Origin: an uncultured cyanobacterium
GTDB lineage: Bacteria; Cyanobacteriota; Cyanobacteriia; CACIAM-69d
Assembly (NCBI GenBank): GCA_937883785.1
Contig: CALGDE010000153.1
Coordinates: 1 to 39,886, forward strand
Length of the DNA stretch: 39,886 bases
Direction: 5' to 3'
Shown here one piece after another: positions 14,859 through 19,971 of this stretch (positions are counted from its first letter, which is position 1; each line of letters begins with the position of its first letter). Both the position numbers and the translations under genes were made by a program. Below the pieces are notes generated by a model. The model searched no databases and was not told the origin of the DNA. It saw only the letters and a program-made list of their open reading frames with translations.

Positions 14859-15698
14859 TTAACCCTTTACACCGCTGCTGGCGTCGCTGGGCACGATATA
14901 GCGCTGGAGGAAGGCAAAACCCACCAGAATTGGGGCGATGGAAATCACTGAGCCCGCCGCCACCAAGCGCCAGTCTAACGAGAACGTTCCCGCCAGTTTT
15001 GAGATTCCCAGGGGCAAAGTATAAAACTCTGGCTGATCCAGGATTAGCAACGGCCAAAGGAAATCGCTCCAGGCGCCAATAAATACAAAAATTGCCAACG
15101 TAATCAGCGCCGGGCGCACGGCGGGCAGCATAATGTGCCACCAAATTCCCAGCTCGCTACAGCCATCAATGCGGGCGGACTCTTCCAATTCCTTGGGCAC
15201 CCCTTGAAAAGCCTGGCGCATTAGGAAAATGCCGAACGCCGAGGCAATGCCGGGAAAAATAAGCCCCAGATAGGTGTTTCGCAACCCCAGGTTCACCGCA
15301 AGGATGTACAGAGGGATCGTGACAATTTGGAAGGGGATAGCGATGGTGGCGACGATCGCCGTAAAAATCACTTCCCGCCCCTTAAAGCTCAGGCGCGATA
15401 GGGGATAGGCCGCCAGAGACGACGACAATAAATTCAACGCCACGGTCAGGCTAGATACCACTAGGCTATTGACCACATAGTTGCCAAAAGGGGCGCTGTT
15501 CCAGGCTTTGACAAAGTTTTCAAAGGTGGGTTGCTGAGGCAGAAAGCGGGGAGGATATTGAAAAATATCTTCGGTGGGAGCCTTGAAGGCAGTGCCTACC
15601 AGCCACAGCAACGGCAGCAGCATCGCAACTCCGATCCCCGCCAGCAAAGCGTAGGTCAGCACCCTATTGCCTAATCGTCGCCACCGTTCCTGTGCCAT
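14859..15698 (-). CDS. Carbohydrate ABC transporter permease, MalG type
   Basis: A 279-residue inner-membrane permease with six transmembrane helices. The EAA loop EESARIDGCSELGIWWHIMLP contacts the ATPase, and the C-terminus (QRYIV...SGVKG) is typical for MalG-type sugar permeases. The usual partners (a MalF-type permease, a binding protein and an ATPase) are absent here. It starts 25 bp after the cobW stop and may be co-transcribed with it, which would be an odd pairing. The substrate cannot be deduced; cyanobacterial GgtD is one relative. Confidence 0.88.
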   Translation of the reverse strand: MAQERWRRLGNRVLTYALLAGIGVAMLLPLLWLVGTAFKAPTEDIFQYPPRFLPQQPTFENFVKAWNSAPFGNYVVNSLVVSSLTVALNLLSSSLAAYPLSRLSFKGREVIFTAIVATIAIPFQIVTIPLYILAVNLGLRNTYLGLIFPGIASAFGIFLMRQAFQGVPKELEESARIDGCSELGIWWHIMLPAVRPALITLAIFVFIGAWSDFLWPLLILDQPEFYTLPLGISKLAGTFSLDWRLVAAGSVISIAPILVGFAFLQRYIVPSDASSGVKG

Positions 15699-15723: not shown

Positions 15724-16761
15724 CTAGGCGATCACCCGGCGAATTTCGTCTTCGTTGAGGTCTTGCCCAATAATAACGAGCTGCGTGCGGCGATTTTCAT
15801 CGGGCTGCCAGGGGCGATCAAAAAAGCTATCAAAGCGCTTGCCCACCCCTTGCAACACTAATCGCATGGGTTTATCTTCCACATCCACAAATCCCTTAAT
15901 GCGATAAATTTCCCACTCTTCCACCAGTCGCTGCAACTTTTTCACTAGCGTCTTGGGGTTATCCACAGTGCCCAGCTCCACGCCAAAGGACGTGATGCTG
16001 TCGTCGTGGTCGTGCTCCGCTTCATGGTCGTGGTGACTATGGCGATTATCCAAGTCATCTTCCACCGCAGCATTAAACCCCAGCAGCACATCGGGCGAAA
16101 TCTGCCCCTTTTCACAGGGCACAATTTTGACCCCTTTGGGCACTTCCGTTTGTAGCCAGCCGAGGACGCGATCGCGATCGCCAGTCTCCACCTGATCCAC
16201 CTTGGTCAGCAGCACCATATCGGCACAGCCCAGTTGGTCCTCGAACAATTCCTCAATGGGCGTTTCGTGCTCCAAATTAGGATCCTCATCCCGCTGGGCC
16301 GTCAGAGCGTCAATATCGCCCACCACCTGCCCAGCCGCCAGGGCTTCGCAGTCCACCACGGTTACCACGCCATCAACGGTTGCGCCAGTACGAATTTCGG
16401 GCCAGCGGAACGCTTGCACCAAAGGCTTGGGCAGGGCAAGCCCAGAGGTTTCAATCACAATGCAGTCTAGGGAGTCGCGCCGTTTTAGCAGCGCTTGCAT
16501 CGTGGGAAAAAACTCTTCCTGCACCGTGCAGCACAGGCATCCGTTCGCCAATTCCAGAATATTGGTTTCGCTGACTGCGGGCTCACCCTCGTCGCACACC
16601 TGGCACGATCGCAAAATTTCCCCATCAATGCCCACCTCGCCAAATTCATTCACCAGCACGGCAATGCGCCGCCCCTGGTTGTTTTGCAGCAGGTTACGCA
16701 CCAACGTGGTTTTGCCCGCACCGAGGAAGCCAGTGACGACGGTAACTGGAAGTTTATGCAT
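15724..16761 (-). CDS. cobW: CobW, G3E-family GTPase for cobalamin synthesis
   Basis: A 345-residue G3E GTPase thought to deliver cobalt for corrin-ring metallation. Visible features are the Walker A motif GFLGAGKTT (11-19), the metal-binding GCLCC motif (74-78), a Walker B-like ETSGLALP, TKVD for guanine recognition, and a His/Asp-rich metal segment (HSHHDHEAEHDHDD) near residue 240. The C-terminal domain (VEEWEIYRIKGFVDV) is that of CobW. Zinc-related COG0523 paralogues are the alternative, but the cobalamin riboswitch, HupE and DUF1636 nearby favour CobW. A 98-bp gap with a hairpin repeat separates it from hupE. Confidence 0.88.
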   Translation of the reverse strand: MHKLPVTVVTGFLGAGKTTLVRNLLQNNQGRRIAVLVNEFGEVGIDGEILRSCQVCDEGEPAVSETNILELANGCLCCTVQEEFFPTMQALLKRRDSLDCIVIETSGLALPKPLVQAFRWPEIRTGATVDGVVTVVDCEALAAGQVVGDIDALTAQRDEDPNLEHETPIEELFEDQLGCADMVLLTKVDQVETGDRDRVLGWLQTEVPKGVKIVPCEKGQISPDVLLGFNAAVEDDLDNRHSHHDHEAEHDHDDSITSFGVELGTVDNPKTLVKKLQRLVEEWEIYRIKGFVDVEDKPMRLVLQGVGKRFDSFFDRPWQPDENRRTQLVIIGQDLNEDEIRRVIA

Positions 16762-16799: not shown

Positions 16800-16851
16800 A
16801 GCCCTCACCCCAACCCCTCTCCCCGGGGAGAAGGAGTTAGGGGATGAGGGC
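16800..16851. repeat. G/C-rich hairpin repeat between hupE and cobW
   Basis: GCCCTCACCCCAACCCC, TCTCCCCGGGGAGA and AGTTAGGGGATGAGGGC form one long, nearly perfect hairpin about 25 bp deep with the CTCCCCGGGGAG palindrome at its tip. This is a familiar intergenic repeat type and is related in sequence to the elements at 21668 and 26217. It may weaken read-through from hupE into cobW. Confidence 0.6.
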
Positions 16852-16859
16852 GTCAAAAA

Positions 16860-17561
16860 TTAACCGAGCACGGCAGAAGCTAGGAATGCAGCGCCAAAAC
16901 CGGTGATTGCAAAGCCCATAAAACGCAGTTTTAGGGCAAGGTTTTCCGGCTGGTCGGGGGATAGTTTCTGAGCGATCGCCCGTGCTCCCAAAGCGATCGC
17001 TGCCTGAATCAAACCAAAGCCCAGCAGGTAAGCCAATAGCGGCGTTATTTCTGCGCCCACCACACTTTCCCCGTAGGCATAGCCGTGGAAAATCCCCGCT
17101 ACAACGGCGATCGCCCCCAGCACCAACAAATTCACCTTGCGTCCCCAGGCAACCAGTGCGCCCACAATAACCACGGACAAGGAAATCATCACCTCAGGCA
17201 ACGGTAAATCCAACGCCTGCAAATGGATACCGGTGCCCACCATGGACCCCACCACAAATACCATCGACACCAGCCAGCCCCAGGCGCGATTCACCGCCAC
17301 TAAACCCACGGCAATGACAAATGCCAAATGGTCCAATCCAATTACCGGGTGCCCCATACCGGACATAAAGCCCTCAAAAAAGTTGCTCGGCAATTTGCCG
17401 TCCAGGGGATGGTGGGCAAAGGCCGGGGAAGCCATCAACCAGGTTGCCAAGCTGATCGCCACACCGGAGGAAAAAGTTACGCGCGATCGCTGAGTCATTG
17501 CCTTCATAGAGTCCAAAGCTTTCATAGAGTTCAAAGCTTTCATAGAGTTCAAAGCTTTCAT
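16860..17561 (-). CDS. hupE: HupE/UreJ-family nickel/cobalt permease
   Basis: A membrane protein with a signal peptide ending ASPAFA before HHP, followed by six or so helices. The family motif is HPVIGLDHLAF, and a second histidine motif is FHGYAYGE. Family members carry Ni or Co; cyanobacterial members are known to be under B12 riboswitches, as here, so cobalt is the likely substrate. The frame is open upstream to 17678 but there overlaps the DUF1636 gene, so the start is placed at one of the repeated ATGs (17561, 17543, 17525, 17507 or 17498). These lie in 18-bp tandem repeats encoding MKALNS. The gene begins 50 bp after the DUF1636 stop. Confidence 0.88.
   Translation of the reverse strand: MKALNSMKALNSMKALDSMKAMTQRSRVTFSSGVAISLATWLMASPAFAHHPLDGKLPSNFFEGFMSGMGHPVIGLDHLAFVIAVGLVAVNRAWGWLVSMVFVVGSMVGTGIHLQALDLPLPEVMISLSVVIVGALVAWGRKVNLLVLGAIAVVAGIFHGYAYGESVVGAEITPLLAYLLGFGLIQAAIALGARAIAQKLSPDQPENLALKLRFMGFAITGFGAAFLASAVLG
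17508..17561 (-). repeat. 18-bp tandem repeat that multiplies the hupE start codon
   Basis: Three 18-bp units on the minus strand begin at 17561, 17543 and 17525. Two read ATGAAAGCTTTGAACTCT and the third differs by one base. A further degenerate half unit follows. Each unit begins with an in-frame ATG, giving MKALNS, MKALNS, MKALDS. No copy is preceded by a strong Shine-Dalgarno sequence. Confidence 0.85.
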
Positions 17562-17610: not shown

Positions 17611-18060
17611 CTAGGCGCTGGTGTCGTCCCGGCGCAGAGTTTGCAATAGGTTTTGGGGAACGGGCGGCATTCGGGCAATTACCCCTTTCTTCATGCCATC
17701 TGGGCGATCGCTCCAGCCCATCATCCCGTCCGCTTTAGATTCGTACAGCGCGGCACATTCAAAAACCGCATCGCATTTGCCGTCCACCTCGTCCCCTTCA
17801 TAGGGCAGGTCGCCAAACAAATACTGATGCTTGCCCGGCGCAGAAAAGCTGATGGCACAGGCATGGCTACAGGCGCTCATGCAGCCGGTGGGCTGAATGG
17901 TCAGCGATCGCCGCTGCTCTTCCGGCAGTTGGTCATACTTCTCTTGCAAAGCCGCAAGCAACCGGGTGCCGCCGCTGGTACCAACCCGTTGTCCTTTCTC
18001 CCAAGTGGAGGCACAGGAGGTGCATACAAATAAAGTGGTGGTGGGCGCTGGCGGTGTCAT
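17611..18060 (-). CDS. DUF1636 metal-binding (2Fe-2S-like) protein
   Basis: A soluble protein of about 149 residues with two cysteine clusters: CTSCAS near the N-terminus and PTGCMSACSHACAI in the middle. Three Cys of the second cluster with those of the first could hold a 2Fe-2S cluster or another metal. The family is commonly found with cobalamin and cobalt genes, as here. The frame opens at ATG 18096, but ATG 18060 is preferred because GGAGGG stands 7 nt before it and the family core begins just after (TTLFVCTSCA). The gene is first after the cobalamin riboswitch, and hupE follows after 50 bp. Confidence 0.85.
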   Translation of the reverse strand: MTPPAPTTTLFVCTSCASTWEKGQRVGTSGGTRLLAALQEKYDQLPEEQRRSLTIQPTGCMSACSHACAISFSAPGKHQYLFGDLPYEGDEVDGKCDAVFECAALYESKADGMMGWSDRPDGMKKGVIARMPPVPQNLLQTLRRDDTSA

Positions 18061-18095
18061 CGCGAGTCCCTCCACATCAAATTGTGTGGTTGTCA

Positions 18096-18134
18096 TTATT
18101 TGAGCCGTAATCCATCACTCGTAGATTTCGGCAA
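18096..18134 (-). CDS. Possible 12-codon leader frame between riboswitch and DUF1636
   Basis: AGGAGGG (18138-18144 on the minus strand) stands 3-4 nt before a TTG that opens MPKSTSDGLRLK. Its TAA stop overlaps the ATG at 18096 as TAATG, the layout of translational coupling. The ribosome binding site lies in a small CCTA-AGAAA-TAGG hairpin, so it could be the riboswitch-controlled site. Alternatively the AGGAGGG is non-coding and only the 18060 start is used. Confidence 0.25.
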   Translation of the reverse strand: MPKSTSDGLRLK

Positions 18135-18177
18135 TATCCCTCCTATTTCTTAGGTCTTATAAACCGTTGAAATCAAG

Positions 18178-18302
18178 AATCGGCGGGCATTCTGACTAAA
18201 AAGCGTTTTCGTGGCACGCTTCATCACAGTTGCGGGACAGCGCTGGACTTACACCAAACTTTCCCCCTTGCGTTTGACGGCTGATCTCCGTCAAAACCGA
18301 TT
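18178..18302 (-). promoter_or_regulatory. Cobalamin (B12) riboswitch
   Basis: The minus strand shows the conserved cobalamin-riboswitch blocks in order: GGGGGAAAG, GGTGTAAGTCC (18245-18255), GCTGTCCCGCAACTGTGA, and the B12 box AGTCAGAATGCCCGCC (18182-18197). The closing P1 stem pairs AATCGG (18297-18302) with CCGATT (18178-18183). Side hairpins are TTTGACGG/CCGTCAAA and AGCG/CGCT. No U-tract terminator follows, so control is probably at translation through the AGGAGGG downstream. It should repress DUF1636-hupE (and perhaps cobW) when adenosylcobalamin is abundant. Confidence 0.93.
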
Positions 18303-18693
18303 GGATATTACGCATTGTTTTCAGGAGTTCACCATACCACGGCTATCATTCCAAAATTTCGTCGGGGACTGAAGCGATCGCCCCATCAAAAATTTTTATA
18401 ACAAGATTAATAACGAGCTCATCGCGATTGCCCAGGCTCACGGGTCAAATTGAGTACCAATCTGATCCACAGTGCAGTTGCCGTAACGCATCGGTGCAGG
18501 GCGATCGCTACAATTCAACTAGCGCGCCTTCCATGTACAAACTCCCCATGGTGCCAACTTCGAGTCATCCATTCCTAAGCCCCCATGGCTGCCTGGCGGT
18601 TGACTGCGACCCTGATCGCCGTCCTTTTGAAAAGGATCGCCACGTTATTTCTGTGGCTTGCCAGTGCTTTAAAGCATTAACTTTTTTATTCCT
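18303..18693. other. Intergenic region between riboswitch and methyltransferase gene
   Basis: It holds the promoter for the B12 operon (minus) and that of the methyltransferase gene (plus). The palindrome TGCTTTAAAGCA occurs just before the methyltransferase start, followed by a T-rich stretch. A 55-codon frame ending in an ATGA overlap with the methyltransferase start is present but has no visible family or ribosome binding site. Confidence 0.45.
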
Positions 18694-19971
18694 ATGACCC
18701 AACGCCCGATCGCCATTGACCTGTTTGCCGGTGCCGGGGGGTTGAGCTTGGGATTTGAGCAGGCGGGGTTTGACGTGGCGATCGCAGTGGAAATCGATCC
18801 GGTTCATGGGCTGGTGCACCATTTCAATTTTGCTCAATGGGTGACCTTACCGCGCTCCGTAAAAGACGTTACTGGCAAAGAGCTGCGGGAAAAAGTTCGA
18901 GAACAGTTTGGGGGCGATCGCGAAATTGACGTGGTGGTGGGCGGTGCGCCCTGCCAGGGATTTTCATTGATTGGACAACGGGCACTGGACGATCCGCGTA
19001 ATTTACTGGTCAAAGAATTCCTGCGCATTGTGCGGGAGGTGCAGCCGAAATATTTCCTTTTTGAGAACGTCAAAGGGCTAACCATTGGTCGCCATCGCCA
19101 GTTTTTACAGGAATTAATTGAGGCGGCAGAGGGCGCAGATTATCAGGTGGTGCAGCCGTGGCAGGTGTTGAATGCAGCGGATTATGGGGTGCCACAAAAG
19201 CGCGAGCGGTTATTTTTGCTGGGGGCACAACGGGGGTTACCGCAGCCAGATTATCCCCAGCCTTTGGAGACGAGCGATCGCCCCACCTGCGCCGATGCTC
19301 TAGAGGATTTACCCGACGCTGAAACCTTCACCCGACTGCGCGATCGCGATGCGGTGACTTTAAAGGCTCCGCCAGCACCCACCAGTGCCTACGGTCGGGA
19401 AATGCGATGTGACGCCCCAGATGACTGGCATTTTGGCTATCAGCGCCAGTGGAATCCGCAGCGTTTAACCGGCAGTTGGCGCACCAACCATACGAGCAAA
19501 ATTCGCGATCGCTTCCGCCAAACCCAGCCGGGCACCATTGATAAACCGTCGCGCTTTTTGAAGCTCGATCCCGACGGCGTTGCCAATACGCTACGGGCAG
19601 GTACTGACTCGGCGCGGGGGGCTTTTACCAGTCCGCGGCCAATTCATTACAAATACAATCGCTGCGTTACGGTGCGGGAAATGGCGCGGCTCCATGGCTT
19701 CCCCGACTGGTTTCGGTTACATTCCACCAAATGGCACGGGGCGCGGCAAATTGGCAATTCCGTTCCACCGCCGCTGGCTCGGGCGATCGCCGCAGAAATT
19801 ATCAAAGCCCTGGGACACCAGCCCACGTGCCCAGAAACTGTCCATAAACTGGGCGACCAATCCTTACTGTCAATGGATATTTCAGCCGCGTGCCGCCACT
19901 GGGATATTGAAAATCCTATTGCCCCGCGATCGCGACCGTCCCTTTCCGTCCCCGCAGACTCATCGGACTGA
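18694..19971 (+). CDS. Solitary DNA (cytosine-5) methyltransferase
   Basis: The 425-residue enzyme has all main m5C motifs: motif I DLFAGAGGLSLGFEQAG (9-25), motif IV GGAPCQGFS with nucleophile Cys87, motif VI ENVKG (124-128), a motif VIII/target-recognition region, motif IX (REMARLHGFP) and motif X (RQIGNSVPPPLARAIA). No restriction endonuclease lies beside it, so it is an orphan. In Synechocystis the solitary enzyme Slr0214 (M.Ssp6803I) modifies CGATCG, the HIP1 core. The length and N-terminus (RPIAIDLFAGAGG) resemble that enzyme as I remember it, and the window is rich in HIP1 sites. CGATCG is therefore the most likely target, but this is inference. Confidence 0.9.
   Translation: MTQRPIAIDLFAGAGGLSLGFEQAGFDVAIAVEIDPVHGLVHHFNFAQWVTLPRSVKDVTGKELREKVREQFGGDREIDVVVGGAPCQGFSLIGQRALDDPRNLLVKEFLRIVREVQPKYFLFENVKGLTIGRHRQFLQELIEAAEGADYQVVQPWQVLNAADYGVPQKRERLFLLGAQRGLPQPDYPQPLETSDRPTCADALEDLPDAETFTRLRDRDAVTLKAPPAPTSAYGREMRCDAPDDWHFGYQRQWNPQRLTGSWRTNHTSKIRDRFRQTQPGTIDKPSRFLKLDPDGVANTLRAGTDSARGAFTSPRPIHYKYNRCVTVREMARLHGFPDWFRLHSTKWHGARQIGNSVPPPLARAIAAEIIKALGHQPTCPETVHKLGDQSLLSMDISAACRHWDIENPIAPRSRPSLSVPADSSD

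Follow-up and report, generated by a model that had tools for sequence, protein, structure and literature searches.

A cobalamin riboswitch ahead of DUF1636, hupE and cobW in an uncultured cyanobacterium, and a predicted link of DUF1636 to cobalt insertion

A cobalamin riboswitch was proposed, in a sequence-only reading, for the minus strand of a contig of an uncultured cyanobacterium, just ahead of genes for a DUF1636 protein and the permease HupE, with cobW further on. The locus raises the question whether these genes respond to a B12-type cofactor and what a protein of the unnamed DUF1636 family does among them. In the 39,886 nucleotides that were analysed (hereafter the window; features are on its minus strand unless stated otherwise), the Rfam model for cobalamin riboswitches (RF00174), the search by which the proposal was to be checked, gave a significant match at 18165-18316. 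The score is well above the gathering cut-off (49.5 against 31.5 bits, E 1.5e-9 for the 39.9-kb window) and bears out the proposed riboswitch; it is the sole RF00174 match found in the 4.84-Mb genome. The range initially given, 18096-18302, holds most of the aptamer plus the leader, but ends 14 nucleotides short at the 5' edge of the aptamer, and its part 18096-18164 falls outside the aptamer. In an alignment of 25 cyanobacterial aptamers, including that of the window, both sides vary in 18 of the 33 consensus pairs, so that the consensus helices are kept by compensatory change; with the model built from these 25 sequences the window scores 136 bits, by construction, as it is itself among them. 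The position also fits this riboswitch family, with HupE and CobW encoded downstream on the same strand. The sequence UCCCGC (18232-18237) is taken as loop L5, the kissing-loop side of the aptamer, a name that was assigned from the UCCCG consensus quoted in PMC10653944. We predict that the RNA of the window acts as a ligand-binding, regulating cobalamin riboswitch. Single-sequence folding of the leader gave a z-score of -2.0, yet a structure unlike the aptamer, and was set aside. A complementarity of seven bases, AAUAUCC in the 5' flank of P1 with GGAUAUU (18133-18139), which by eye is kept through a G-U pair in a relative of the same genus (genome G001), was discarded as being close to chance expectation for the stretch length by our estimate.

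The three genes follow the riboswitch in the proposed order, and all score above their family cut-offs. The DUF1636 gene (17614-18060) encodes a protein of 149 amino acids from ATG 18060 or 161 amino acids from ATG 18096, which matches PF07845 with 121.7 bits (gathering cut-off 31.6) and is found once in the genome. The next gene (16863-17561) encodes a metal permease of the HupE/UreJ family, as indicated by PF04955 (132 bits) and the HPxxGxDH motif (HPVIGLDH); from its context, HupE would transport cobalt. The 5' end of hupE (17508-17561) contains three near-identical 18-base tandem copies of ATGAAAGCTTTGAACTCT, and the resulting tandem ATGs provide several in-frame starts, leaving the start of hupE ambiguous. 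The CobW cobalt chaperone GTPase (15724-16761) is a TIGR02475 equivalog (506 bits, cut-off 332) that also matches PF02492, possesses a CLCC (CxCC) motif and a His-rich stretch, and is the best CobW match of the genome. Cotranscription of cobW with hupE is uncertain, since a 49-nucleotide inverted repeat (about 16802-16850, with its 3' arm single-copy in the window) parts the two genes. About 25 nucleotides after cobW lies a gene for a sugar-type ABC permease (14859-15698), which is kept there in a same-genus relative (L089) and may share the operon transcript. A C5 cytosine DNA methyltransferase gene on the plus strand (18694-19971) diverges from the riboswitch operon. Further, the genome encodes CobN (1576 bits), located elsewhere and away from the window operon, the B12-dependent methionine synthase MetH, and CbiM, which provides a further candidate cobalt importer besides HupE. 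Because CobN, MetH and CbiM are present, the host probably makes and uses a cobalamin.

The link of DUF1636 to cobalt or B12, as proposed from this one locus, finds support in other cyanobacteria. Among 39 relatives, 20 DUF1636 genes score above the Pfam cut-off, and for 12 of the 20, counted by eye, a same-strand riboswitch lies upstream at a distance of up to 3 kb; this holds for 9 of 10 genes of the CxxC...W form and 3 of 10 without that form (by eye). In a wider draw from the class, DUF1636 was found in 147 of 291 genomes (E up to 1e-10) and the riboswitch in 272 of 291 (E up to 0.001). Named loci were taken as the best 80 of 258 DUF1636 matches, all of them cyanobacterial, a choice that is biased to window-like DUF1636. 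These best 80 of 258 contain 68 riboswitch matches by the 25-aptamer model; one weak match (L139, 42 bits) was excluded from later counts. In 62 of the 80 loci a riboswitch is located within 3 kb upstream of DUF1636 on the same strand, and 51 of these are direct, with less than 500 nucleotides and neither HupE nor CobW between. Same-strand partners of the riboswitch and DUF1636, by Pfam identity, are CobW (23/62), CobK/CbiJ (11/62) and MetE (1/62), again among the best 80 of 258; HupE belongs to the run, before or after, in 13 of the 62 loci, and all four are absent from the runs of 20 of the 62. No upstream riboswitch was found in 18 of these 80 best matches of 258, 12 of which are from Pseudanabaena by name or by the same neighbourhood; in Pseudanabaena DUF1636 follows DUF2605 and DUF2973 genes, and some contigs begin close to the gene. 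Within the host's own family, in five of six genomes (G000-G004) a single strand carries the riboswitch, DUF1636 and the best CobW match of that genome, all in a span of about 3 kb; the sixth (G005) has cobW on another contig.

Control of HupE, a cobalt importer, by a B12 riboswitch had been assumed to be established for cyanobacteria, and is indeed published (PMC4284471, PMC7689651). The window shares with the hupE riboswitches described there the aptamer family RF00174, a HupE-type cobalt permease as target and the cyanobacterial host; it differs from them, as far as those descriptions go, in having DUF1636 first, cobW following and a seemingly degenerate expression-platform hairpin (see below). 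CobW under a B12 riboswitch is also described for the B12-regulated cobW-cobN clusters of proteobacteria (PMC2770081). A tblastn search of plasmids with DUF1636 gave 110 records, and 10 loci were opened of 40 among the matches listed, chosen for variety. Six of the ten carry a DUF1636-cobW-cobN run, with DUF1636 directly before cobW, and all six are from alpha-proteobacteria; unlike in these clusters, cobN of the window genome is not part of the locus. By Rfam, five of the six runs have a riboswitch immediately preceding DUF1636; that of the Rhodovulum locus is 3.7 kb upstream, in front of a run of cobalt-transport genes with CbiM. In plasmid loci of Sinorhizobium medicae and Trichormus a riboswitch precedes DUF1636 with other genes behind; for Methylibium (DUF1636 beside cbiB) and Synechococcus NIES-970 (a siderophore-like cluster) Rfam found no riboswitch in the stretch opened. 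DUF1636 paralogues were also observed in clusters of a TonB receptor and an iron ABC transporter (L179, L181), one of which is preceded by a cobalamin riboswitch. PMC2770081 states that in cyanobacteria cobW does not cluster with B12 genes and is not under riboswitch control. On genomic context this statement appears to be contradicted by 23 of the 80 named loci (best 80 of 258) and by the five genomes out of six of the host's family. A search of open-licence papers for DUF1636, COG5469, ORF378 and CobW/ferredoxin found no paper tying DUF1636 to B12. We regard the riboswitch of the window itself as ordinary, and the functional link of DUF1636 as the useful part.

As to the protein, the two Cys clusters noticed at the outset are present in the form of CxxC and CxxxCxxxC. 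Cys 13, 16, 60, 64 and 68 are invariant in the DUF1636 alignment, and so is Cys 102 in the riboswitch-type set. An AlphaFold2 model obtained with 58 sequences (mean pLDDT 88.7) has as its best match PDB 9jn8 (Z 14.3, 109 residues aligned, rmsd 2.4), followed by the Aquifex [2Fe-2S] ferredoxin (Z 9.5-9.9; 1m2a, Z 9.8). The former structure, titled thioredoxin-like ferredoxin, is ORF378 of R. capsulatus, which is also a sequence homologue of DUF1636 (E 2.9e-16) and possesses the same five Cys in CxxC and CxxxCxxxC, although identity in the structural alignment is only 38%. The model thus predicts a thioredoxin-like [2Fe-2S] ferredoxin fold for DUF1636; such a protein would bind a [2Fe-2S] cluster via four Cys. 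Such a fold was already predicted for DUF1636 in PMC4520260, where one ligand position is described as different. Most likely, DUF1636 acts as the Fe-S or thiol partner in cobalt insertion of the CobW/CobN (late) type, a role for which the exact job is suggested by context.

How binding of a corrinoid would reach the first gene depends on the leader between aptamer and start codon. The best candidate for the Shine-Dalgarno sequence of DUF1636 is GGAGGG (18068-18073), seven nucleotides before ATG 18060. The region, GTGGAGGG, is kept in G001, there before GTG, for which reason ATG 18060 appears to be a better DUF1636 start than ATG 18096; the frame from 18096 is also open in both the window and G001. 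A small hairpin (18072-18089) takes in the first two G of GGAGGG. Another hairpin, GCCGAAAUC / GAUUACGGC with loop UACGAGUGAUG (18104-18132), occupies the place of the P13/L13 expression-platform hairpin and is conserved in G001. From its position and partial sequence we infer that it is homologous to the AUCUGCGAGGUAC(A/G)GAUG hairpin of relatives. In its loop the Shine-Dalgarno-like GAGG is changed to GAGU, and L13 (ACGAGU) would keep three of the five proposed pairs with CCCGC, as compared with the common GCGAGG. An ATG at 18115 in the loop opens a possible upstream reading frame of 12 codons (MDYGSNNDNHTI, 18077-18115, stop at 18077-18079), out of frame with DUF1636; the peptide is not conserved, with 7 codons in G001. 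In four other genomes of the host's family (G002-G005) the hairpin start, ATG or GTG, is by eye in frame with DUF1636, and the changed hairpin therefore belongs to the window's genus, in which the expression-platform hairpin appears to be degenerate. A terminator scan of the leader on the minus strand revealed no terminator-like site, as had been claimed; since an intrinsic terminator is lacking there, the translational control that was proposed is plausible.

In relatives, the leader hairpin has the form (A/G)UCU(A/G)CGAGG...(A/G)UG; its loop carries the Shine-Dalgarno sequence (GAGG), and its stem the start codon. Within 1.96 Mb of strand sequence this hairpin was counted 57 times, in 56 cases just behind a riboswitch; the lone hairpin away from a riboswitch match (L131, position 4306, plus strand) is possibly a remnant or part of an unrecognised riboswitch. 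Loop L5 contains CCCGC in all 68 aptamers and L13 contains GCGAGG in 57 of 68, which suggests that CC-CGC of L5 pairs with GCG(A)GG of L13, leaving a bulged A; this scheme agrees with the bulged kissing loops mentioned in PMC10653944. Among 67 plus-strand leaders (66 and the window), one motif identified 40 in which the hairpin start is that of DUF1636 or HupE, and a looser motif identified another 3; in 21 leaders, among them that of the window, this start opens a short reading frame; no hairpin motif was found by either pattern in 3 of the 67. For the group, translational control by hiding the Shine-Dalgarno sequence and start codon is well supported by these comparisons. Several Nostocales leaders (L126, L150, L153 and L154, also L124, L131, L146 and L157) have reading frames of 30-47 codons between the riboswitch and DUF1636 or metE, and the stretches shared by these leaders possibly represent an element conserved at the RNA or DNA level.

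Very probably, then, the cobalamin riboswitch turns off a gene set for cobalt acquisition and insertion when a B12-type cofactor is plentiful. The parts of this explanation that were observed are the aptamer, the gene order, the CobN and MetH of the genome, and the recurrent co-occurrence of riboswitch and DUF1636. When corrinoid is scarce, the expression-platform hairpin would be open and the message translated. This would yield HupE for cobalt import, the small thioredoxin-like ferredoxin DUF1636 and probably also CobW as the protein that hands Co(II) to CobN. With corrinoid bound, contact of L5 with L13 would close the hairpin and translation would fall, with no terminator taking part. Because the L13 hairpin is degenerate in the window's genus, control of DUF1636 may proceed there via the structure around GGAGGG or via the short upstream reading frame.

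The latter route would be a relay, in which the riboswitch controls translation of the 12-codon frame and ribosomes finishing it open the hairpin at 18072-18089, exposing GGAGGG for DUF1636. This is possible, although we lean against it. A short reading frame starts at the hairpin ATG in 21 of the 67 leaders, that of the window included, and stop and start are close together in the window (16 nucleotides, with the Shine-Dalgarno sequence between), in G001/L089 (ATGA overlap), in L105 (GTGA overlap) and in L113 (5 nucleotides). A precedent is the ppe2 B12 riboswitch of M. tuberculosis (PMC11260477), which according to the description there has, like the window, a short reading frame between riboswitch and gene, the start region and L13 in one hairpin, and close stop-start spacing; it stands apart in gene set and phylum, and the frame in the window is a predicted one with a peptide that is not conserved. 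Peptides of the short frames vary in general: all codon positions are affected by changes, in two of three sets mainly by non-synonymous ones, and sister species have frames of different length. The Rhizonema/Scytonema and metE-type sets gave no sign of coding constraint, and the Scytonema/Brasilonema pair has 3 synonymous and 2 non-synonymous codon changes, too few to tell. In other leaders with short frames the stop is 15 to about 500 nucleotides from the first candidate DUF1636 start; in the window the change of GAGG to GAGU leaves the upstream frame without a good Shine-Dalgarno sequence, and the hairpin ATG may be kept for pairing alone. The sequence-only reading had instead taken AGGAGGG at 18138-18144 as a Shine-Dalgarno sequence hidden by the riboswitch. 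This strong heptamer is located where it was claimed to be, in the right region between aptamer and hairpin, and three nucleotides on, a TTG opens a short reading frame that ends at TAATG (18094-18098); but it lies 41 nucleotides upstream of ATG 18096, the nearest listed start, and 77 upstream of ATG 18060, and it reads AGGACGG in G001, the only same-genus relative compared, whereas GTGGAGGG before the start is kept. The assigned role is thus not supported, and we consider it highly improbable. Action at the level of transcription, by intrinsic or factor-dependent termination, is known for other cobalamin riboswitches (PMC10653944), but is unlikely here in view of the terminator scan and of the hairpin of most relatives, which embeds both Shine-Dalgarno sequence and start codon.

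The metal itself could also be questioned. HupE and UreJ proteins serve hydrogenase or urease in other bacteria (PMC4284471), and DUF1636 paralogues also occur beside siderophore-type genes, which would fit a HupE that imports nickel and a DUF1636 that is a general Fe-S protein merely sharing the operon. This is made very unlikely by the B12 riboswitch, by the CobW equivalog next in line and by the DUF1636-cobW-cobN runs in another phylum. A more far-reaching proposal, which we offer as speculation and hold to be rather doubtful as a whole, gives DUF1636 the place of the missing CobW partner in late cobalt insertion, conserved between alpha-proteobacteria and cyanobacteria, with its synthesis in the window's genus gated through the short upstream reading frame. 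DUF1636 would then be a riboswitch-controlled thioredoxin-like ferredoxin or a Cys metal-relay protein that helps CobW to release Co(II) to CobN, or that keeps the redox state of cobalt or corrin right.

Under the preferred explanation, a cobalt acquisition and insertion gene set that is turned off by a B12-type cofactor, the unnamed DUF1636 family gains a pathway, B12 synthesis, because in two phyla its genes are found downstream of a B12 riboswitch and next to cobW or cobN. The published view of cyanobacterial cobW as not riboswitch-regulated would be revised, on genomic context. In vitro work on CobW infers a further, not yet named factor that triggers GTP hydrolysis for cobalt hand-over (PMC10206600), and DUF1636 is a concrete candidate for this factor.
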